Of a stretch of 32,697 nt of DNA, positions 5,720 to 19,204 are shown piece after piece. Under the pieces are notes generated by a model, which saw only the letters and a list, made by a program, of their open reading frames with translations, was not told where the DNA came from and did no database searches. The DNA is taken from the IMG/VR virus record IMGVR_UViG_3300001041_000932, positions 1 to 32,697 of that record. The stretch is one strand, 5' to 3'. Source of the DNA: a virus. Numbering within the stretch: the stretch's first letter is position 1; every line of letters begins with the position of its first letter. The position numbers and the translations under genes were made by a program.

Positions 5720-6379
5720 TTACCTCCTAAAAACTCTATAACTCAAACCGTTCTTTGATATTTTTTCAAGCATTACGGATAGCCTTTTGTGATTCAACTC
5801 AGTTCCAACAAACTTCTTACCATTCTTTTGGGCGTTTATTCCAACTAATCCGCGCCCCATACAAAGGTCACCAATACAGATATAATCCTCATTCTTGCAA
5901 ACCCACTCGATAATGTCCTCCTCGTCCATATAGTCAAGCGGGAGCTTTTTACGCTTTGCGCTGCCTCTAATAACGTAGCATAGATTTTCCTTTTTATGAT
6001 AATAAGTGCTGTTATAAAATGTAACGTGCTTATAAATAGTCTTCATTTCCTGTATAAACTCGCTTAAATACTCTTTCCCAACTTCAACATAACAGACTAC
6101 CGGGTTTATTTCAGCGATGCACTCAAAGAGTCTTTTATAAAACGTTGTAAAGCTGTCTTGATAATCCTGTCGTTCCGCTTTTGTGTAGAATGTATTCAGG
6201 TTACCAAGGTTCCACGGTGGGTCTACGAAAATTAAATCAGCAGGCCACATAATGCCCGGGAGGGGATCGAATATATTGTGAACCTTAACGGTGCTTCCGT
6301 CGTCGAAAATAGCGAATTGACCATCACTAATGGGGTGACGAAGGTAAGCATCTCCATAGTTCCACTTAACCAACTTCAT
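5720..6379 (-). CDS. DNA adenine methyltransferase, beta-class layout
   Basis: The 219-residue protein carries the catalytic motif DPPW (residues 53-56) followed late in the chain by the AdoMet-binding segment DLCMGRGLVGI (about 171-181) and FVGTELN. The order catalytic motif first, binding motif last, marks a beta-class amino-methyltransferase; DPPW favours N6-adenine over cytosine. The protein is small with little room for a target recognition domain between the motifs, as in many phage solitary methylases. No cognate restriction enzyme is nearby. It overlaps the ParB-like gene by 14 nt. Confidence 0.85.
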   Translation of the reverse strand: MKLVKWNYGDAYLRHPISDGQFAIFDDGSTVKVHNIFDPLPGIMWPADLIFVDPPWNLGNLNTFYTKAERQDYQDSFTTFYKRLFECIAEINPVVCYVEVGKEYLSEFIQEMKTIYKHVTFYNSTYYHKKENLCYVIRGSAKRKKLPLDYMDEEDIIEWVCKNEDYICIGDLCMGRGLVGINAQKNGKKFVGTELNHKRLSVMLEKISKNGLSYRVFRR

Positions 6380-6965
6380 CCACCTCAGTCATTTCCCAAG
6401 ACTTTGAGTAGATCTGTTTTTTGAATAGCTCAGCAATGCCTGTAATCTGCTTGAGCCTGAATACTTCCTCGATTTCCATGCCTAGCTTTTGTGCTACCTC
6501 TTCGTCAGGAACACCTTGCTCAATTAAGGCCTGCACTAGATCACCCATGAGTTCCACCTGATGCACTCCCCGGGCTCGGTTAAATTGGACGGTGGCCTCC
6601 ATGCGTTGTGCTGGGGTAAGGTCTAGGACAATGATTGGAATTTCTTCTGCATCTAACCATATTTCCAGAATGCTGTCTCTATGGAAACCGTCTATAATAA
6701 CGAACTTTTCCAAATCATCATCCCATGCTGTAACGATCCCGAAACAAACTCCATTACTCAAGATGGATGTTTCTAAAAGTTCCATGTTGTTTCTTGGCAC
6801 GCTGTTTGGATTGTAGTTATTAGCCTGAACGAGATCTCTCGGCACGATGATAGGGCACATAACAGGGAATGATATATCGCCTTTCTTTGTTTTTATTTTC
6901 GGAAAGTCTGGTATTTCGTAGACTCCGTATTTAGTAGCTATTCTTCTCACAGTAATTCCCTCCAT
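6366..6965 (-). CDS. ParB-like domain protein, IbrB-like
   Basis: This 199-residue protein has a ParB/sulfiredoxin-like domain: VPRDLVQANNYNPN, then LLETSILSNGVCFGIV, then the signature IIDGFHRDSILEI (DGFHR at 92-96), followed by a helical region (about 118-175). There is no ParA beside it, so chromosome or plasmid partition is unlikely. Its overlap by 19 nt with a PAPS-reductase-like gene matches the IbrA-IbrB pairing known from phage-related elements, where ParB-fold partners act with PP-loop enzymes. Biochemical role here is inferred; it could bind nucleotide and DNA to guide a base or backbone modification. Confidence 0.8.
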   Translation of the reverse strand: MEGITVRRIATKYGVYEIPDFPKIKTKKGDISFPVMCPIIVPRDLVQANNYNPNSVPRNNMELLETSILSNGVCFGIVTAWDDDLEKFVIIDGFHRDSILEIWLDAEEIPIIVLDLTPAQRMEATVQFNRARGVHQVELMGDLVQALIEQGVPDEEVAQKLGMEIEEVFRLKQITGIAELFKKQIYSKSWEMTEVDEVG

Positions 6966-8065
6966 TTCTTAATAGTGGCCTCCCTGGGATCTGGCTTGTT
7001 ATCGATAGGGAGATTGTTCTCGTAGTCGTTCAGAACTAACTGACGGCACTGCTGGCGAGCAACATGGGGATTCGTGAGGTGTTTTCCGAAACGCTTTACG
7101 AAGATATCTTTCTTGGTTTCGTCCGGGTAGGTTTCAAGCAGGAAGTCTCTGTATTCTATCCACGTCTTGTAATTCTTCGGCAGTTTTTGAACTCTTAGCA
7201 TCTTAGAATCTTTGCCGTACAGATTGCCAATACTGATACCCTTAACCCTTTTGAGCAACCGATTATAAGTACTAGGTTCAAACTCCGGCAACTCAACCAG
7301 CGCCTTGAAGGACTTCTCGTGGATTAAACTAGATACGCGGATTTCCTGTATCCCCATGCCCTTTTTGTACATATAGTCATAGATTTTCGAATACTTCAAT
7401 TTTGTATCATAGATATATTTCCATATATCATGGAAATTCCAATCATAGAGAGGATAGAAGGCAACGCTTCCGCGTTTCATCTTAGTGCACCAGAAAGTAT
7501 TTTGGTACCCGGGATTCTTAGCGACAGCTCGCCACCGGTTGGGGCTTTCCGTGGCGCGTAGGCCAACGAGAAAGGCTGTATTTTCGCGGGAGTTCTGAAA
7601 GTTTTCTAACGCATCATAAAACCCAAATCCTTTGTTTTTATCCCTGACGGTTTCCGTTTCTATGGGCCATGGTTTGTGCTGAATGGAACCGGTTTTCTTA
7701 CTACGCATCCACAATTTGTGTTTGCCAGCTTCCCAGCATATGAGTTGGCCTTCCGTTAGACTCGTGGCGTTGGTGAGCTTAAATTCGATCTGTAGCCATA
7801 GCGGGATAGTGTTCTCAGGATACAGTTTCATGAGGTACTCAATCTGCTTAATTGTGCTGTCGTATACCACCTCTTCATCCAGAAAGAATATGCCGATCTT
7901 TCTTCCGCGTTTATTAGCCTCCAAGAGCGCTAAATGAACCAAGACCGTGCTATCCTTGCCGCCACTTATCGATACAACAATGTTCTCGAACTCGTCAAAA
8001 ATGTACGACATCCTCTCCTTTGCCGAGACCAGTACCGACTTATTTATATAAACTTGCTTGAGCAT
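6947..8065 (-). CDS. PAPS-reductase-like PP-loop enzyme, IbrA-like
   Basis: The 372-residue protein carries the PP-loop SISGGKDS (about 32-39), which binds ATP pyrophosphate in the adenine nucleotide alpha hydrolase family, then FFLDEEVVYDST, LVGLRATES and a WCTKMKRG segment with a Cys. The C-terminal third looks like the DUF3440 region found with this subgroup. It is not a biosynthetic CysH: no sulfate assimilation genes are near, and a ParB-like partner, a DNA methylase and a helicase are. Related enzymes such as DndC/SspC-type proteins act in DNA sulfur modification, so nucleic-acid modification is plausible but unproven. It overlaps both neighbours. Confidence 0.85.
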   Translation of the reverse strand: MLKQVYINKSVLVSAKERMSYIFDEFENIVVSISGGKDSTVLVHLALLEANKRGRKIGIFFLDEEVVYDSTIKQIEYLMKLYPENTIPLWLQIEFKLTNATSLTEGQLICWEAGKHKLWMRSKKTGSIQHKPWPIETETVRDKNKGFGFYDALENFQNSRENTAFLVGLRATESPNRWRAVAKNPGYQNTFWCTKMKRGSVAFYPLYDWNFHDIWKYIYDTKLKYSKIYDYMYKKGMGIQEIRVSSLIHEKSFKALVELPEFEPSTYNRLLKRVKGISIGNLYGKDSKMLRVQKLPKNYKTWIEYRDFLLETYPDETKKDIFVKRFGKHLTNPHVARQQCRQLVLNDYENNLPIDNKPDPREATIKKWRELL

Positions 8066-12726: not shown

Positions 12727-13596
12727 TCACACCTTCGTCCGTGTTTTACCAAGTTCGAACTCGTGAATCCTTGCGGTCAAAGTCTGAATCCGATCTTGGA
12801 GAGTATCGATTTTGACCGTATATTCGTCTTTAAGTTTAGCTGTTGATTCGAGCACACGATTATTGGCATCGATCCCTGCCGCATGAATCTGCAGGTCAGC
12901 CATTTTTTGCATAGAGGCCAATTCGCCGGCATGAGTCTTTTCTCTGGTTGTAATAGCTTGCTCTTTGATTTCGATCACATGGAGATGTTGAGATGATTCT
13001 GTAATGAGTTTTTCGATTTGGCGCCGAGACTCTTTGCGCTGCGCCCTAAGCTCTTGTACTTCAGCTTCCATTTCAGCCACGGTCCCGATCCGCGCCTCCA
13101 AGGTTTCGTTTTGATTTGTTAGTAGCTCGATAGTTATACGATTAGATTTATTAACGGCTTCAAGCTCGCTATTTCTCTCAGAAAGCTCTTTGAGCTGATC
13201 CTGAATTTCGGCCAAATCCAACCGAGCTTTGTCGCGCTCAACTTCAGCATGAAGACGACTCTTATCTACCTGGTCGACAATTCCTTGATGCACTCGTTTT
13301 TCTTGATCGATGCTTTCTGTGAAGTTTTCCTTCAGGTCATGAAGTTTCTGGACCATGTTTGTAAAGATTGATTCGGCATGGGATAGGTGGTAACGAAGCT
13401 GCTGCATATCCTCGGTTTGCTCAGTGTCGCTACTGGCTAATAAATTCGTTTTGAATTGTGTAACCATGGCCGCGAATAGTTCTTTTTGGCTAAGGCCAGT
13501 TACTTTTAATAGCTCGCCCACAGATTCAGTAATGTCACTTGTGGTTTTTACCGAGTATGTAGGCGGGACTGCCTTAATTTCCTTTTCATCCGACAT
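12727..13596 (-). CDS. KfrA-like DNA-binding coiled-coil protein
   Basis: The 289-residue protein has a short N-terminal DNA-binding-type region (residues 14-50: YSVKTTSDITESVGELLKV then GLSQKELFAAMV, resembling an RHH or HTH) and then about 220 residues of nearly unbroken coiled coil rich in Glu, Gln, Arg and Leu. This plan recalls plasmid KfrA and similar phage proteins that bind their own promoter and form filaments; the identification is by architecture only. The gene stands alone with its own promoter, operator-like repeats (13621-13684) and terminator, which fits autoregulation. Confidence 0.7.
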   Translation of the reverse strand: MSDEKEIKAVPPTYSVKTTSDITESVGELLKVTGLSQKELFAAMVTQFKTNLLASSDTEQTEDMQQLRYHLSHAESIFTNMVQKLHDLKENFTESIDQEKRVHQGIVDQVDKSRLHAEVERDKARLDLAEIQDQLKELSERNSELEAVNKSNRITIELLTNQNETLEARIGTVAEMEAEVQELRAQRKESRRQIEKLITESSQHLHVIEIKEQAITTREKTHAGELASMQKMADLQIHAAGIDANNRVLESTAKLKDEYTVKIDTLQDRIQTLTARIHEFELGKTRTKV

Positions 13597-13776: not shown

Positions 13777-13980
13777 TTAGCCGCTCTCCTTTTTGTTTAT
13801 CCCGATCTTTATTTCGTAGACCGACTTTTCAATCTCCCTCACCGACTCGATCAACTCCGAATTTGCCTGTCGTACACCATTCCTGACAGCCATCTTGATT
13901 AGGTAGTAGAGGAGAATGAGGGACAGGAACCATAGGCAGAGGAAGAGAAGAGTGTTAGGGAGAAGGAATGCGTCGTGCAT
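13777..13980 (-). CDS. Small single-span membrane protein
   Basis: The 67-residue protein has one strongly hydrophobic segment (about residues 9-30) followed by a basic turn (RNGVRQ) and an amphipathic helix (ELIESVREIEKSVYEIKIGI). It would sit in the cytoplasmic membrane with a helical tail. A GAAAGGAATGATCCC leader gives the ribosome binding site. It is the last gene before the 13723-13752 terminator. Function unknown. Confidence 0.65.
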   Translation of the reverse strand: MHDAFLLPNTLLFLCLWFLSLILLYYLIKMAVRNGVRQANSELIESVREIEKSVYEIKIGINKKESG

Positions 13981-14003
13981 GGGATCATTCCTTTCAATAG
14001 TGG

Positions 14004-14978
14004 TTAATCATTTTGCGATATTACGCTAATCGTATCGGTCTTATAATCTGATTTAGCCGTAACGTTTTGAAGGATTAATGCCCCGAAGGCATTTTTAGCC
14101 CTGTATGTCATCTTAACGATTAAGTGGTCGCCTTTATCCGAGTATGTCGTTTTTTCGTGATCGAAGCTCTTTGGGTCGTTCAGGTTCTTTTTGAGTAAAT
14201 CTACCAGATGGGTATGCGATCCATCCCAAACGCTAAATTGCCCCTTAACCCATGTCTGGTATTGCTTTTGGGTATATAGTCTTTCAAAATCCTCCTTTAC
14301 CTCAGCTTTCTCGGAATCTTTTAGATGGTTGAAATATTTGTCTTCAATTTCGGCGAAATGCTTTAATTCATCTTCAGTAAATAATTTGTATTGGCTCATA
14401 ATCAATAACGCCTTATCTGAGTCTGTAATCTTAGCTGCCTCAGCTTTTTCGCGAGCTATCTGCTCAGCGGTCTTCCCTGGTTGTGAAGCTGTCTTTGGCG
14501 ATGTGGCATCTTCTCCTCCGACGATATTTCCGATCGCGCCAAATATAACTAGATAGCCCACGATAGCTACAGCCATTTTCCACTTAGTCTTCGACCGAAA
14601 ACCTAAGATTTTATTCCACCATTTTCGAGGAATTTCCTCTAAGCGTATATTGGTATTTGCTGTAATTAAAGAAGCAACTTCTTTGCCTTTTTGGTTTACC
14701 TTTAATTCATAAGTCCTGGTATCGCTTTTTAGCATAAATACTGACTGAGTAAACAAATGGTCAACGGTTGCACTTGTCCAGTTCTCCCACTTATCTTCGG
14801 ACAACTTACTGGCAGACCCGTTCTTAAAATCGTACTGCTCAAATCCCGTAGCCGAAAAGACTAAATATGAATTTGACTTACCTTGAACATTCGTGACAAG
14901 CGCCGGAAAGATTCCTAACTGATTTAAATAAATCTTAAATGCGTCTATCGGTTTTTGTTGCTTCTCTTTCTTTGCCAT
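14004..14978 (-). CDS. Membrane-anchored two-domain protein
   Basis: The 324-residue protein has an N-terminal basic stretch and a strand-rich cytoplasmic domain (about 10-120), one membrane span (about 135-152, VAIVGYLVIFGAIGNIVGG), a Lys/Ala/Glu-rich linker (165-190) and an external C-terminal domain (about 235-324). The tail, with DLLKKNLNDPKSFDHEKTTY and KNAFGALILQNVTA, resembles small secreted-lipoprotein domains of Bacillota. The start ATG follows AGGAGAGTG. It belongs to the same leftward run as the M23 and SpoIIIAC-like genes and may be an envelope part of the same machinery. Confidence 0.65.
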   Translation of the reverse strand: MAKKEKQQKPIDAFKIYLNQLGIFPALVTNVQGKSNSYLVFSATGFEQYDFKNGSASKLSEDKWENWTSATVDHLFTQSVFMLKSDTRTYELKVNQKGKEVASLITANTNIRLEEIPRKWWNKILGFRSKTKWKMAVAIVGYLVIFGAIGNIVGGEDATSPKTASQPGKTAEQIAREKAEAAKITDSDKALLIMSQYKLFTEDELKHFAEIEDKYFNHLKDSEKAEVKEDFERLYTQKQYQTWVKGQFSVWDGSHTHLVDLLKKNLNDPKSFDHEKTTYSDKGDHLIVKMTYRAKNAFGALILQNVTAKSDYKTDTISVISQND

Positions 14979-15085
14979 TTAACACACTCTCCTAATCTTC
15001 GCATACAATTATATCTCTTCCTTATAAGCCGGGCTATTCCTGCAACTCGACAGGATTAATTGTTTTACGCTAAGTTTTGCAACGG

Positions 15086-15763
15086 TCACAACGCCAGCAA
15101 CGGCAAGAGCTTCAACAACATCAGCGCAACTCCTCCGAGTATGAGTGTGTTCCCAACTGCCTTTGCGGCTTCCGGAGTGGGGGCAGGTGCAGGGACCTCA
15201 TCCCTCGGATTAACAACCGATTCGATATCAACGTCCGTGACCAAATGATTCTTCACAGTCCCGGCAAAGTCCTCAAAGTTGCGGTTATCCCTAAAATGTC
15301 TCCCGATCTCAACTGTGATTTCATCCGTCACCCCGTGATCCGGGTCAATCGTCCGTTTGTATTTAAAAACATCTTTGTCGTATCTACCGTTATTGAGTTG
15401 GCCTTTGATCTTATTCTTCAAGTAGTTACCTATCTTATTACCAACGTTATCCAACCTACTTGCATCCATTGTTCGTGGTATACCGATGGCTATTTGTTTT
15501 CCTTTGGCTATCCTTTCCCATGTTGATAATGGTGCGTAACCCAGTGCTGGATGATCCTCTGACCAGAACATTCCGTTGAGGGAGATGGGGTTATTTTGTG
15601 GCATTGGATAGAGATAAAACGCGAATGGGGAAGTGTTCAGATAGGCGCTAGGGGTTGTTGCTTGTGCCATGAAGGGGTTTGATAGGGAGATGCCAACTAG
15701 AATCATCAGCGTGGCAATGGCGAGTGTACGACGAACAGTAGACTTGCGCAGGACTAAGATCAT
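15086..15763 (-). CDS. Secreted protein with C-terminal membrane anchor
   Basis: The ATG at 15761-15763, about 9 nt after GGAGG, starts the gene; a TTG three codons earlier abuts the site and is less likely. A signal peptide (basic RKSTVRR, hydrophobic about residues 13-27, cleavage probably after AQA) is followed by an extracellular region, a Pro/Ala linker (PAPAPTPEAAKA) and a C-terminal hydrophobic segment (about 204-225). No sortase motif is present. It is likely an extracellular protein held in the membrane. Family unknown. Confidence 0.65.
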   Translation of the reverse strand: MILVLRKSTVRRTLAIATLMILVGISLSNPFMAQATTPSAYLNTSPFAFYLYPMPQNNPISLNGMFWSEDHPALGYAPLSTWERIAKGKQIAIGIPRTMDASRLDNVGNKIGNYLKNKIKGQLNNGRYDKDVFKYKRTIDPDHGVTDEITVEIGRHFRDNRNFEDFAGTVKNHLVTDVDIESVVNPRDEVPAPAPTPEAAKAVGNTLILGGVALMLLKLLPLLAL

Positions 15764-15764
15764 A

Positions 15765-15956
15765 TTAATCAACCTCCAATTTTGCCTTTAATTCTTCTAG
15801 GGATTTCAGAAGTTTCTCTATAGTTTCCCTATCTGGTGGGGAAATCCTCAAAAGAGTATTCAACTTGGCAAACATTACAATCATCTTCCAATACCATATT
15901 TCGGCAGTAATCCTACTCTTAATCACCCCGACAATTGGTTTTTTCACGCGAAACAC
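15765..15956 (-). CDS. Small basic protein
   Basis: The 63-residue protein is basic at its N-terminus (MFRVKKPIVGVIKSR), has a moderately hydrophobic centre (AEIWYWKMIVMFAKLNTLL) and ends in a charged helix (ETIEKLLKSLEELKAKLEV). It lies between the M23 peptidase (1-nt gap) and the secreted protein, whose ribosome binding site lies in its own 3' end. Possibly membrane-associated. Function unknown. Confidence 0.55.
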   Translation of the reverse strand: MFRVKKPIVGVIKSRITAEIWYWKMIVMFAKLNTLLRISPPDRETIEKLLKSLEELKAKLEVD

Positions 15957-15957
15957 C

Positions 15958-16635
15958 TCACTTCATAAAATCTTTGGGGTCAACAGCCTTCCCTCCAATC
16001 CTAATCTCAAAATGCAGGTGAGGACCTGTTGAATTCCCGGTAGTCCCGATCTCAGCAATCTTGTCACCGCCTAGAATCATCTTTCCCTCCGGTACTAATA
16101 CCTTTGAGCAGTGGGCGTAAAGCGTTCCGTAATTATTGCCATGATCGATGATGATGTACAGCCCATAAGTACTATCTTCAGCAACTTTCTCCACCGTTCC
16201 GGGACGACTAACCCTAATCGGATCGCCTATCTTCCCAGCAATGTCCAGTCCGTGATTGTTCTCGTTGTAGCCTTGGGTAACTTTTCCCTTCACCGGCCAA
16301 TCAAACTTCGCATTGCCGGTTAATCTCTCCCAAATCCCCTGATATCCTACGCTCCCGGCCGGGGAAACGGCATCTCCGATTTGCTTCTGGACCCCTTTGC
16401 TTTCGCCGAGTAAATCATTAACCTTATCCCGTCCTTGGCTATAGGTCTGAGCGGCTACATGAATATCGTTACTGAGTTGTTTAAATGGTGCGGCTACCCC
16501 AGACAGGACCATCAACCCAAGACTAACGACACCTAACCACTTAACGAGCATCGCCATATCTTTGCCGGCAGAATGACGAACGTATAAATAAACAACCAGA
16601 TACAAGGCACTTAGCCTAACAAAATCAGCGATCAT
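15958..16635 (-). CDS. Membrane-anchored M23 peptidase
   Basis: The 225-residue protein has two N-terminal hydrophobic segments (about 5-20 and 29-49), a linker and a LytM/M23 domain (about 112-225). Metal ligands and catalytic residues are visible: His128 and Asp131 in HGLDIAG, His175 in LYAHCS, and HLH at 206-208 in STGPHLHFEI. It should cut peptidoglycan cross-bridges or stem peptides at the outer face of the membrane. In conjugative elements such enzymes open the wall for the transfer channel; in sporulation SpoIIQ uses this fold as a structural partner of SpoIIIA proteins. Its gene overlaps the SpoIIIAC-like gene by 4 nt. Confidence 0.9.
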   Translation of the reverse strand: MIADFVRLSALYLVVYLYVRHSAGKDMAMLVKWLGVVSLGLMVLSGVAAPFKQLSNDIHVAAQTYSQGRDKVNDLLGESKGVQKQIGDAVSPAGSVGYQGIWERLTGNAKFDWPVKGKVTQGYNENNHGLDIAGKIGDPIRVSRPGTVEKVAEDSTYGLYIIIDHGNNYGTLYAHCSKVLVPEGKMILGGDKIAEIGTTGNSTGPHLHFEIRIGGKAVDPKDFMK

Positions 16636-16838
16636 TTGAACACATCGCCAATCTGCTTAAGAAAACCGATAGAAGCGGCAAGGACCATTCCAGAAACAGA
16701 AATTAGCGCAAGGGTTTCAGCGTAATAAATCCACTCAGACTTCCCGAAAACTTTAAGACCCAGCTTTATAACTTGGAGACCAACCGCAATCCCGAGTATT
16801 GAGAGGATTGGGGCTGCCGCTGAGATTCCTGGGAACAT
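16632..16838 (-). CDS. SpoIIIAC/SpoIIIAD-like membrane protein
   Basis: The start is the ATG at 16836-16838 behind AAGGGGG, giving 68 residues, the usual length of SpoIIIAC. Two hydrophobic helices (about 10-30 and 40-60) are joined by GKSEWIYYAE, and the end reads FLKQIGDVF, a pattern like the SpoIIIAC/AD family (IAGIG, GKKEY, LFKxVxxVF). In sporulation these proteins help form the channel between mother cell and forespore. Here the gene lies between a DNA-processing gene and an M23 peptidase, so it is more likely part of an element-encoded membrane channel. Assignment is by pattern, not by search. Confidence 0.65.
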   Translation of the reverse strand: MFPGISAAAPILSILGIAVGLQVIKLGLKVFGKSEWIYYAETLALISVSGMVLAASIGFLKQIGDVFK

Positions 16839-17548
16839 TGCGATTCCCCCTTTTTCGCGTTGTGTACGTTGAAACAAAACTTCTTGACTTCATCTAGGGT
16901 TAGGACTTCGACGAGGTACGAATAGGCCCGATCATTCTTAACGATTTTCTGAATGATGTCAGTTGGTCCATCTGTCACAATGAGGATGGTAAAATTCTGC
17001 TCCTTATTCAAGTCAATCCACCAATGAGGACGGGCCCCTTGGGATTTCTCCTGAATAAGTTTTTTTGCCAGATCATTGTATTGCTTAATCTTCTTGAACT
17101 CATTACCGGATTCGTGCCGATTAAATTCACAAAAGAAAGGTTTTAGTTCGGGAGTTTTGAACGTGATAAATTGATCCGGTTGGACGATGGGGAGAAATTC
17201 CTTTGGTTCGTTCTGGAAGGTTAGATGGAACTTGCTCTCCCTGGCCCTAATGGTCATAAAGGTATAGATCCAACTCTTCCCAATGGTGTGCTCGACGTTT
17301 CTTGGGGCCTTCTCGTCAACTAACCAAAAGTAATCCTTCTCGGAAAACGATATACGATTTCCGCGCTTAATACGTTTTTTCTTAACTAGCCTCCTAGTGC
17401 AACGATGGACCATTTCCACAGATAATCCAGCGAACTCAAGCAAATGGATTTGATCCGTGTTCAAGCAGTTGCAGCGCTCTAGGTGAGCTAGAACCCGTAA
17501 ATCTCGGGAGTAGCCCTTTACGTGACTTGCTTGACTTGTGTTGCTCAT
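16766..17548 (-). CDS. Replication-relaxation family protein
   Basis: The best start is the ATG at 17546-17548 (MSNTSQASHV), 9 nt after GAGG; an ATG two codons upstream and a longer open frame exist. The N-terminal part (about 12-70: RDLRVLAHLERCNCLNTDQI ... RRLVKKKRIKRG) is a winged-helix type domain, followed by a mixed domain with FCEFNRHESGNEFKKIKQY, the nuclease-like core seen in the Replic_Relax family. Members help open or process DNA for plasmid replication or transfer and often neighbour FtsK-like ATPases, as here. It overlaps the FtsK gene by 113 nt and the SpoIIIAC-like gene by 73 nt. Confidence 0.78.
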   Translation of the reverse strand: MSNTSQASHVKGYSRDLRVLAHLERCNCLNTDQIHLLEFAGLSVEMVHRCTRRLVKKKRIKRGNRISFSEKDYFWLVDEKAPRNVEHTIGKSWIYTFMTIRARESKFHLTFQNEPKEFLPIVQPDQFITFKTPELKPFFCEFNRHESGNEFKKIKQYNDLAKKLIQEKSQGARPHWWIDLNKEQNFTILIVTDGPTDIIQKIVKNDRAYSYLVEVLTLDEVKKFCFNVHNAKKGESQCSQESQRQPQSSQYSGLRLVSKL

Positions 17549-18800
17549 AGTCATGCACCTCGCCTTGAATATCTTCGTATGGCATAGCGAACTGGGGGAG
17601 TCTGGAAAGGAGTTCGTGGTAACGGTCGGGATCGGAAACAACAGAAGGGAAATACATAGACTGAACCTCTATCTCTTCATCCCAGTCGAATATTGCTCGG
17701 CCCTTAGCCTTCTTTGGTATGAAGGCTGCTTTGCTATTGCCTAAAATCATGTTGGAGTTCACGGTATCCTTAACCCGGTAAACGAGATTAGCGTCAAACA
17801 TAGCTTTCAACTCAGGGAATGAACCGATCTTACCGAGCGCACCGGAACTAGGGCGTTGGATTGCTCCGACAGTAAATATTCCCTGAGATCTGCCAACATG
17901 GAGAAGCCGATGATAGGAGTTATAGGCATCCTTTGTTAACTCTCCCATCTCATCGCAACACAGAACGATTGCCGGCATCTTGTGCCCGATCTGAAGGAAC
18001 TCCGGAAAGTTTCTTGCGCCGGTTGAATTAACAATCGGAGCCCTACGGTCGTTCTCGTCGTTAACCCACTGCAGGAGTTTTTCGATGTGATGGGGTTTTT
18101 TTGCCCACAAAAGTCCATGCTTTTCGAGATACTGAAACTCACCTAGTTTAGGATCCAGCATAACGGGTATTACACGAGGCTGTTGGTCAATGCGGTTCAT
18201 ACTCAGAAGGGTATAGAGGATTACGTGTTCGATGTTTGACTTCCCGCTGCCCATCATGCCAACGATGAGGAGTGTGAGCATTTCGGCAAGATCCTTGACG
18301 ACAAGTCCGTTAATGGAGTAGCCCACAGGGAAGGGGAGTAGCATACCTTTCTTGATATAGGGGGAGGGGTCGAACTCGTAGGGATAGGACTTCTTGCGGT
18401 CCACGTTACTAACTGTCATATGCACCGCCATTCCGTGGGCTTCGATCTGACAGGTGCCATCCTCACCTAAAGCATCAGCAAAGGTCTGCTCTAAGGACTT
18501 GAACTTCTCGAAGTTGTGTCCAGGCGGGAGGTTGATCACAAAGAACCATGTTTCGTCAGAGTGGTCATCCATGGACTTGATTCGGCTTATGATCTCCTTC
18601 AGGCTCTTAGGGGCCTCCGATTTAGATTTAGGCTCCTTGGGTTCGTCGAGTCTCTTCTCGATGATGAGGGGACGGTAATCCTCTCCGTAGACGTGGACTA
18701 TGACATCGTAGATCTTGGCGGGGATACCGCCGCCTCGTTCTCTGCCGCGCCGCCACTGCCTCATGGCGTGGTCGTAAAGATCATGTCGTTCTGTTGTCAC
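17436..18800 (-). CDS. FtsK/HerA-type DNA translocase ATPase
   Basis: This 454-residue ATPase has Walker A GMMGSGKS (181-188) and Walker B IVLCCDE (278-284), with MLDPKLGEF after the first and VGAIQRPSS after the second, the layout of FtsK/SpoIIIE and TcpA/TraB-type coupling proteins. No N-terminal transmembrane segments are seen, so it either acts in the cytosol or docks on a membrane partner. Such enzymes pump DNA through a channel during conjugation or packaging. The C-terminus is Ser/Lys-rich. The AAACGTTT array lies just upstream of the gene. Confidence 0.88.
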   Translation of the reverse strand: MTTERHDLYDHAMRQWRRGRERGGGIPAKIYDVIVHVYGEDYRPLIIEKRLDEPKEPKSKSEAPKSLKEIISRIKSMDDHSDETWFFVINLPPGHNFEKFKSLEQTFADALGEDGTCQIEAHGMAVHMTVSNVDRKKSYPYEFDPSPYIKKGMLLPFPVGYSINGLVVKDLAEMLTLLIVGMMGSGKSNIEHVILYTLLSMNRIDQQPRVIPVMLDPKLGEFQYLEKHGLLWAKKPHHIEKLLQWVNDENDRRAPIVNSTGARNFPEFLQIGHKMPAIVLCCDEMGELTKDAYNSYHRLLHVGRSQGIFTVGAIQRPSSGALGKIGSFPELKAMFDANLVYRVKDTVNSNMILGNSKAAFIPKKAKGRAIFDWDEEIEVQSMYFPSVVSDPDRYHELLSRLPQFAMPYEDIQGEVHDYEQHKSSKSRKGLLPRFTGSSSPRALQLLEHGSNPFA

Positions 18801-18865
18801 TTCGTTCCTCCCTTCTCTTCTTCGCGGGGTTTTGGCTAGTGTTTATGCGGTTTTTAGCTTGTTCA

Positions 18866-18971
18866 CCGTTTGATAGGGCAAACGGGCTGGAATACGGGGT
18901 GTTAAACGTTTGTGCACTCGTTTTGTATTTTGAGATGGAAAACGTTTGAAGCAGAGGGATATCAAACGTTT
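18866..18971. repeat. AAACGTTT repeat array (operator, iteron or oriT candidate)
   Basis: Three perfect copies of the palindrome AAACGTTT (18904-18911, 18940-18947, 18964-18971) are preceded by an inverted pair CGTTTG-N6-CAAACG (18867-18884). They fill the 161-nt gap upstream of the FtsK-like gene; the last copy overlaps the stop codon of the RHH-like gene. Regular copies of one palindrome in a gap next to replication and translocation genes suggest a binding site for a replication, transfer or regulatory protein. Confidence 0.65.
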
Positions 18972-19204
18972 GGGGCAGGATGGGTTTTGCATCGGATGAG
19001 TTCATGAGCTATGAGACGTGCATCGGCTGGGGTGATGGGGTCTGCTAGCTTACCTAACGCTCCCATCTCAGCCAACTTCAGCCGAACTCCATCCCTGACC
19101 ATATCAGCCATTTCTCCTTCCTCAAGATTCAGTCTCTTTACAGCTTGTTGAATGTCTTTGTCTCGCTTACGGAGTCTTGCCTTAAGAATTGTTATGTCGC
19201 TCAT
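18962..19204 (-). CDS. RHH-type small DNA-binding protein
   Basis: The 80-residue protein starts MSDITILKARLRKRD and shows a strand, a first helix (KDIQQAVKRLN) and a second helix (EGEMADMVRDGVRLKLAEMG), fitting a ribbon-helix-helix fold, then a short tail. GGAGGT lies 6 nt before the ATG. It heads the long leftward operon and lies beside the AAACGTTT array, so it is the best local candidate to bind that array, as plasmid relaxosome or copy-control proteins do. That link is inferred. Confidence 0.6.
   Translation of the reverse strand: MSDITILKARLRKRDKDIQQAVKRLNLEEGEMADMVRDGVRLKLAEMGALGKLADPITPADARLIAHELIRCKTHPAPNV

Follow-up and report, generated by a model that had tools for sequence, protein, structure and literature searches.

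Does a virus whose operon encodes a DNA pump, a replication-relaxation protein and a relative of a sporulation-channel protein carry a machine for moving DNA through the cell envelope? This question is raised by a 32,697-nucleotide stretch of viral DNA (positions 1 to 32,697 of IMG/VR virus record IMGVR_UViG_3300001041_000932, referred to here as the window), for which an earlier reading of the letters alone (the sequence-only reading) had proposed a transfer or secretion conduit made of sporulation-type parts. We found that an overlapping core of genes for an FtsK/SpoIIIE-type motor, a Replic_Relax protein (RR), a SpoIIIAC-like protein and an M23 protein recurs across differing phage backgrounds, and that the third of these products, a 68-amino-acid protein, is on profile comparison a distant SpoIIIAC homologue. 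All operon genes were found on the minus strand where the sequence-only reading had placed them. They follow in the order given below, after a conserved DNA element; transmembrane (TM) segments were called by Kyte-Doolittle windows.

18792..18927, plus strand: element E, about 136 bp, probably non-coding, conserved beside ftsK in clostridial-type cassettes.
17436..18800, minus strand: FtsK/SpoIIIE-type motor of 454 amino acids, without an N-terminal TM segment (PF01580 FtsK_SpoIIIE, E=2.5e-10).
16766..17548, minus strand: RR, predicted Replic_Relax protein (MOBC superfamily, PF13814) of 260 amino acids, no TM segment.
16632..16838, minus strand: 68-amino-acid, two-TM SpoIIIAC homologue by profile comparison.
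15958..16635, minus strand: protein with two N-terminal TM segments and a LytM (M23) domain (Peptidase_M23, E=1.6e-29).
15765..15956, minus strand: 63-amino-acid small protein, 45% identical over 49 amino acids to the protein in the same slot of the bacterial locus L176.
15086..15763, minus strand: signal-peptide protein (SP) with a signal-peptide-like N terminus, an ectodomain and a C-terminal TM segment.

Both the FtsK/SpoIIIE-type pump and the signal-peptide protein with a membrane anchor are therefore present as the sequence-only reading described them; no known family was found for SP in profile scans. The same reading had called the 68-amino-acid product SpoIIIAC-like, naming profile comparison with that family as its own test. 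SpoIIIAC is described as part of the mother cell-forespore secretion complex. By itself, the window protein gave no SpoIIIAC match in hmmscan, TIGR02848 included, and its sole match in the Pfam scan was to DUF5362, below threshold (0.027). PF06686 (SpoIIIAC and SpoIIIAD) matched one of five family members (E 0.087) and reached 13.7 bits in record G004, against a curated cut-off of 24, with no match in the other 6 records; TIGR02848 aligned with the member from contig L005 at E=0.0015 over 58 ungapped positions. Compared as a family with nine SpoIIIAC proteins in hhalign, the match was P=1.1e-7 at 24% identity, again ungapped, versus 0.02 against SpoIIIAD and 0.011 against the M23 protein's N terminus. 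That SpoIIIAC profile comprised 9 of 13 SpoIIIAC loci (L143, L145, L148 and L150 were left out); a 15-sequence set mixing in six SpoIIIAD fragments gave 4.3e-5, and 0.0021 against SpoIIIAD. The M23 N-terminal region was also tried as a second SpoIIIAC/AD domain and rejected (P 0.023 against SpoIIIAC and 0.48 against SpoIIIAD).

The reverse search and a control for gene position point the same way. Of 18 genomes, 17 of them with PF06686 matches, six yielded a total of seven matches at E<=1 to the family profile, A2: the best (4.7e-4) and the third (0.049) were spoIIIAC and the second (0.034) was not, so that spoIIIAC was matched in 2 of the 17 genomes having it, the remaining 15 being unmatched and the other five matches lying elsewhere. 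We then compared with SpoIIIAC all open reading frames (ORFs) of 55-125 amino acids that encode two or more TM segments in the surroundings of 33 FtsK-family members. Matches at P<1e-3 came from 8 of the 31 such ORFs near the motor gene versus 0 of 82 elsewhere (best 0.015; Mann-Whitney 1e-6), although five of the eight, from the window and clostridial-type cassettes, are close relatives of one another and not independent; the other three belong to L177 (3.7e-5), L216 (2.3e-4) and phage SP-15 (7.9e-4). The two-TM proteins of L176 and L178, the loci whose gene order is most window-like, were singly not significant (0.1 and 0.055), and five motor-adjacent two-TM proteins including these, when pooled, gave 8e-4 against SpoIIIAC and 4e-4 against A2. 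A tblastn search with the 68-amino-acid protein returned nothing but E=7 matches, from 1 plasmid record and 8 phage records. On the family match, the best A2 match and the proximity to motor genes, the SpoIIIAC likeness has withstood the test set for it.

The likeness does not extend to the whole spore channel. With the SpoIIIA-SpoIIQ channel of endospore formers (SpoIIIAA-AH plus SpoIIQ), the window shares one SpoIIIAC homologue and a membrane-anchored LytM-fold protein, and it differs in lacking any other SpoIIIA protein among the proteins scanned and in an M23 domain that is generic, the SpoIIQ model ranking 8th of 14 M23 models. No second PF06686 candidate, as an AC plus AD pair would give, was present, with one candidate per record; no other SpoIIIA family was found in the ten window proteins scanned, AA, AB and AE-AH not being sought elsewhere on the contigs. 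The membrane-anchored M23 protein of the sequence-only reading is thus real and its SpoIIQ identity is not supported, and of the sporulation-type parts the SpoIIIAC homologue stands while SpoIIQ and a further SpoIIIA protein do not; the conduit itself we infer.

How tightly the genes are held together is seen in their overlaps, which in the window measure 113 bp for ftsK and RR, 73 bp for RR and the 68-amino-acid gene and 4 bp for the latter and the M23 gene, with comparable values in relatives (ftsK and RR overlap by 101-113 bp in 5 of 7 loci compared, by 38 bp in L177, and are separated by a 25-bp gap in L180). The cassette occurs in the same order in five further contigs, L003-L007, of which L004 and L007 give identical matches. 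These contigs hold no other window gene at E<=1e-4, barring a weak match of the coiled-coil gene in L003 and L006. All five cassette genes are under purifying selection, with a dN/dS of 0-0.16 among L003, L004 and L006, while silent sites are saturated between the window and its relatives (pS 0.69-0.95). In L005 the M23 protein and SP are 47-50% identical to those of L003, L004 and L006, as against 81-88% for FtsK, RR and the 68-amino-acid protein. The M23 divergence falls mostly within the LytM domain of the alignment, and over L005:12187-14146 this domain and the SP ectodomain are far from the type of the other three, next to similar core genes. The outward-facing parts thus look variable, as if exchanged in L005.

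Such a divergence of outer parts around a similar core could be expected if the cassette served defence or superinfection exclusion, with an FtsK-like ATPase and a PD-(D/E)xK-like partner at the membrane destroying or blocking incoming DNA. A DndB/DGQHR-like gene directly 3' of SP (L006:14014-15453, 3.8e-10; weakly in L003:13912-15540, 0.001) would fit this, as would the FtsK similarity to defence proteins (L178 to mad8, 1.2e-18; SpaA1 to SspH, 1.4e-34; window to SspH, 2e-10) and the position of the pair beside lysis and regulator/integrase genes in phages SpaA1, GBSV1 and 268TH007 and in pG5MAi6_3. However, no complete PADLOC system was matched among the ten proteins scanned. Their similarity was confined to the FtsK domain (SspH/mad8/HerA) plus weak coiled-coil and RR matches, and membership in a known anti-phage defence system was rejected. 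RR has no meaningful PADLOC match (best 0.027), the FtsK similarity is generic, and a conserved cis-element points to action on the module's own DNA. We therefore hold defence to be improbable.

The motor contains a single hydrophobic segment (166-182), which we take as a core strand because it lies directly before Walker A. In all seven loci read from Bacillus/Geobacillus phages and Priestia plasmids, a small two-TM gene (95-144 amino acids) precedes ftsK-RR, so that the pair occurs on plasmids as well. It is mainly this gene order that suggests a two-TM protein as the anchor of the motor. As in the window, the pairs of SpaA1, GBSV1, 268TH007 and the Priestia plasmids have the motor first, RR second and a small two-TM gene nearby, and window-type and Bacillus-phage motor profiles match strongly (P 3.6e-25; motors 21-25% identical). 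They differ in that the two-TM protein, also tried as a SpoIIIAC candidate, is not significantly SpoIIIAC-like (P 0.021) and that no M23 gene is annotated alongside. In the phages and pG5MAi6_3 the pair stands between lysis and integrase/regulator genes, and 268TH007 has a 96%-identical sibling phage without the FtsK-RR block (PMC9476937). Two Priestia plasmids have SinI and Spo0E-family genes, whose products regulate sporulation, shortly after ftsK and its partner (L163:2669-2800, L165:5944-6120). Typing counts 126 of the 170 plasmids with a partial (<60% identity) FtsK match as non-mobilizable, and may thereby miss a mobility route.

The replication-relaxation protein of the sequence-only reading is likewise present, its homologues lying above the Pfam cut-off (L176 28.8, L178 44.3, L177 39 and SpaA1 43.2 bits). 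The window RR is 41% identical to that of L176 and 34% to that of L178, and PD, E and K positions are common to 12 of 12 aligned RR proteins, Bacillus-phage RR included; tblastn of RR gave no match at 0.01 in plasmids or phages. By homology of its Replic_Relax domain, RR belongs with the MOBC relaxases and is a putative DNA-nicking protein. The earlier statement that no relaxase is visible is consequently wrong at the family level, because PF13814 is filed as MobC in the literature on integrative conjugative and integrative mobilizable elements (ICEs and IMEs); PMC5357655 lists it so and treats a DNA-pump gene beside a MobC-family gene as a mobilisation pair. MOBC is also described as related to restriction endonucleases (PMC11389934), and on plasmid pGIAK1 a Replic_Relax protein is encoded next to VirD4 and VirB4 genes (PMC3756968). 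Like the VirD4-MobC modules of IMEs, the window has a PF13814 protein beside a DNA-pump gene, to which it adds a conserved DNA site. It differs in a motor that is FtsK-like without an N-terminal TM segment rather than VirD4, in being borne by a tailed phage, and in that the site is a candidate only. Having a PF01580 motor gene directly before the gene of a relaxase-like protein is an arrangement known from ConQ. It is also that of TcpA in Firmicute conjugative elements, which, in the same survey (PMC5357655), pairs with non-canonical relaxases and not PF13814. On the phage contigs, no type IV secretion system (T4SS) genes were found by two models.

Element E lies at the head of the cassette, the ftsK start falling inside its left edge. 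It comprises an inverted repeat, CCGTTTG-n6-CAAACGG, plus CAAACG repeats, with CAAACG occurring 4 times in 161 bp (0.1 expected). The element is upstream of ftsK in L003, L005 and L006 too, oriented oppositely relative to ftsK in the window, and in the clostridial contigs its far end resembles, by eye, a relic ribosome site plus start codon. Identity between the window and L003, L004, L005 and L006 is 69-71%, while silent sites are saturated. Local scores were 69 (L003), 64 (L005) and 61 (L006), versus a mean of 16-17 and a maximum of 26-27 in 500 single-base shuffles; in L176 the score of 29 equals its own shuffled maximum, a trace at most. There is a single copy per record and no other match at E<1 in the 1.25 Mb of DNA compared, and pattern scans of viral contigs returned cassette contigs only. 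Short ORFs cross the element, but its alignment gaps are not multiples of three, which argues against coding, so that it is probably non-coding. Element E is thus a candidate site, possibly an origin of transfer (oriT), a centromere or an operator.

The repeats would also suit plain vertical maintenance, in which the module would initiate the replication of an extrachromosomal prophage or partition it, the envelope proteins only tethering the complex. One relative sits on a prophage-like circular plasmid, and the Replic_Relax family is described in PMC3756968 as essential for plasmid replication and relaxation. An actin-like gene with a small partner stands divergent from the cassette in two phage records (G003:C1:80228-81558, ALP_N E=1.3e-10; G005:C1:60954-62308, assigned by sequence likeness), whose phages may be plasmid prophages. 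On the other hand, the window phage has two tyrosine recombinases, and partition needs no wall hydrolase. Maintenance alone seems to us rather improbable.

The phage context is clear from the parent contig. The window corresponds to positions 20376-53072 of the 82.6-kb contig G001 at 100% identity across its full length, and G001 encodes TerL, portal, S78 protease, capsid, contractile-tail sheath, tape measure and baseplate J, the terminase, portal, capsid, sheath and baseplate genes together placing it in Caudoviricetes. Given these virion genes and the holin, amidase and two tyrosine recombinases of the window itself, the element is a tailed, contractile and probably temperate phage rather than an ICE; the sequence-only reading had a real gene set before it and did not recognise the tailed phage. 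That several phages have FtsK-RR close to their holin and amidase genes (by annotation, partly by eye) raises the thought of a virion or lysis function, in which the M23 protein would aid infection or lysis and the operon would be ordinary phage equipment. In the window, L003 and L005, however, there is a 4-bp overlap between the M23 and two-TM genes, and the window phage has a separate holin and amidase; we regard this function as very improbable.

The remaining genes around the cassette are as follows.

18962..19204, minus strand: 80-amino-acid small protein encoded upstream of ftsK, by eye a possible ribbon-helix-helix protein, with no Pfam match.
14004..14978, minus strand: 324-amino-acid accessory protein with one TM segment; its counterpart at this position in L176 is 46% identical.
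13777..13980, minus strand: 67-amino-acid single-TM protein (Kyte-Doolittle), a possible accessory.
12727..13596, minus strand: 289-amino-acid coiled-coil protein; the gene that ends the L176 cassette encodes a product 69% identical to it.

The one TM segment in each of the 324- and 67-amino-acid products agrees with the other membrane proteins that the sequence-only reading saw in the operon. The slot of the 80-amino-acid protein is filled in L178 and L176 by small proteins (72 and 88 amino acids) without BLAST similarity to it, and a weak relative (27%) of the coiled-coil protein is located beyond the actin-like gene in G005. Farther away in the window, at 6366-8065 on the minus strand, the genes of a PAPS-reductase-like and a ParB-like protein overlap (the second assigned by eye, without a Pfam match), next to a DNA methylase-like gene; the pair is reminiscent of IbrA/IbrB.

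Outside viral contigs, one bacterial genome locus, L176, has the whole order through the coiled-coil gene, its products other than the two-TM protein being 32-69% identical to those of the window, and L178 has the core FtsK-RR-TM-M23 without SP (by eye). In L177, L179, L180, L181 and L216, FtsK-RR is accompanied by between one and three small TM genes but by no coupled M23 gene (by eye), L180 having an M23 gene just upstream (by eye), and many of the Bacilli loci read have FtsK and an RR-like gene without small TM genes. FtsK profile A1 at E<=1e-35 matched 6 of 398 genomes of the phylum. It matched none of 206 genomes of the Clostridium puniceum family, a set with no known positive, so that this shows nothing; the same holds for the RR profile in 300 genomes of the Sporomusa class (0 matches, no known positive). 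In 391 genomes of the C. puniceum class, the RR profile matched 2, with short and stop-containing matches only. An A1 pattern scan of genome contigs returned 43 stretches, none a relative, and repeated viral contig scans gave the same six contigs. Profile A7 matched 396 of 398 genomes because host FtsK/SpoIIIE also matched; 14 genomes with short, near full-length FtsK members were picked by eye among the A7 matches listed.

The genomes with such members are enriched in sporulators: spoIIIAC/AD was present in 20 of 20 genomes chosen for an FtsK-family member versus 46 of 60 others (p=0.0115), and in 14 of 14 when class-sample members alone are counted (p=0.038). The host of the window phage is probably a spore former. 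The phage's nearest terminase relatives (70-80% identity; best 80 of 146) include those of Chengkuizengella, Sporosarcina, Anaerobacillus, Maledivibacter, Paenibacillus, Sporomusa and Clostridium, and 17 of 18 searched genomes of such genera have spoIIIAC/AD. Together with the SpoIIIAC homology and the actin-like gene and partner next to the cassette in G003 and G005, this enrichment is consistent with forespore delivery, in which the module would drive the DNA of a prophage or phage-plasmid through the sporulation septum with its SpoIIIAC-like part at the septal membranes. Yet the enrichment is modest, the 60 controls coming from one class sample and 6 of the 20 positives from a phylum sample, many FtsK-family members lack a SpoIIIAC-like protein, and no sporulation-type promoter or Spo0A box was found in 7 upstream regions with simple patterns. 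Delivery to the forespore is a close alternative that we nevertheless consider rather unlikely.

The reading that we favour, tentatively and at somewhat less than even confidence, is that the cassette is a prophage-borne DNA-translocation module, and we lean to mobilisation-type transfer between cells. On the gene identities, the SpoIIIAC homology, the gene overlaps, the purifying selection, the conserved cis-element and the phage context, we infer that the products would form a complex that nicks DNA and pumps it towards such a destination. The small upstream protein and the Replic_Relax/MOBC-like protein would assemble on element E as an oriT- or centromere-like site. The SpoIIIAC-like two-TM protein would hold the FtsK motor, which has no N-terminal membrane segment of its own, at the membrane, where it would pump phage DNA through an envelope or septal passage, while the membrane-bound LytM protein and the SP ectodomain would prepare or hold the wall outside.

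Several observations weigh against this proposal. Being tailed, the phage is already equipped to deliver its DNA. The ligands of zinc in M23/LytM proteins are the HxxxD and HxH motifs, and the first His of HxxxD is replaced by Asn in the window, L003 and L004 but present in L005, L006, L176 and L178, so that the window copy lacks the full motif set, a zinc ligand has likely been lost and wall cleavage is doubtful for this copy, though likelier for relatives; a coupled M23 gene was seen in only 2 of 20 bacterial loci (L176 and L178, by eye). The window RR (ORF 16766-17569) stays just under the Pfam cut-off (PF13814, E=7.7e-5, 23.3 versus 25.3 bits), the residue two after E is Asn or Thr in window-type RR, and window-type and Bacillus-phage RR profiles match weakly (P 0.0019, probability 14%). 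Anchoring by a two-TM protein would be echoed by a fused N-terminal membrane segment, which occurs in the L213 motor and in neither L217 nor L220. AlphaFold2 models from five-row alignments reached a pLDDT of 33.0 for RR and 47.8 for SP. Element E may instead serve as operator or centromere, and its single strands in the window fold no better than shuffles (z -0.44 on both strands; -1.39 in L003 and -2.40 in L005). Finally, VirB4 (PF19044) was absent from 7 of 7 virus records and a VirD4/TraG-type protein (PF12696) from 6 of 6, each sought with one model in records that may be fragments. The former agrees with the absence of VirB4 noted by the sequence-only reading, here extended to the rest of the element with that single model; PF19044 matched 8 of 14 control genomes, 4 over cut-off. 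In genome G1258 (G1258:C1:3150353-3157480), a VirB4-like gene (PF19044, 29.9 bits, 75 positions) accompanied by VirB6-, VirD4- and M23-like genes (by eye) is separated by about 10 kb from an FtsK-RR-TM-M23 cassette on the chromosome, with sugar genes between the cluster and the cassette.

A phage SpoIIIAC homologue or an FtsK-RR-SpoIIIAC-like-M23 cassette was not found among the titles and abstract openings listed by searches of the open-access literature (8 of 44 and 12 of 25 listed in two of them), and earlier work on sporulation genes of gut phages (PMC10294663) includes spoIIIE, the words spoIIIA and spoIIQ being absent from its main text. That temperate phages of spore formers carry a self-contained DNA channel made of a SpoIIIAC-type protein, an FtsK/SpoIIIE-type pump, a wall hydrolase and a dedicated cis-site is a wider claim that we consider unlikely, if conceivable. 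If true, it would give prophage DNA a second, non-virion route, into the forespore or a neighbouring cell, and SpoIIIAC-type proteins would also be membrane parts of DNA pumps. The existence of SpoIIIAC relatives tied to phage DNA pumps hints at what such a two-TM protein may be capable of, and possibly at the origin of a part of the spore channel.

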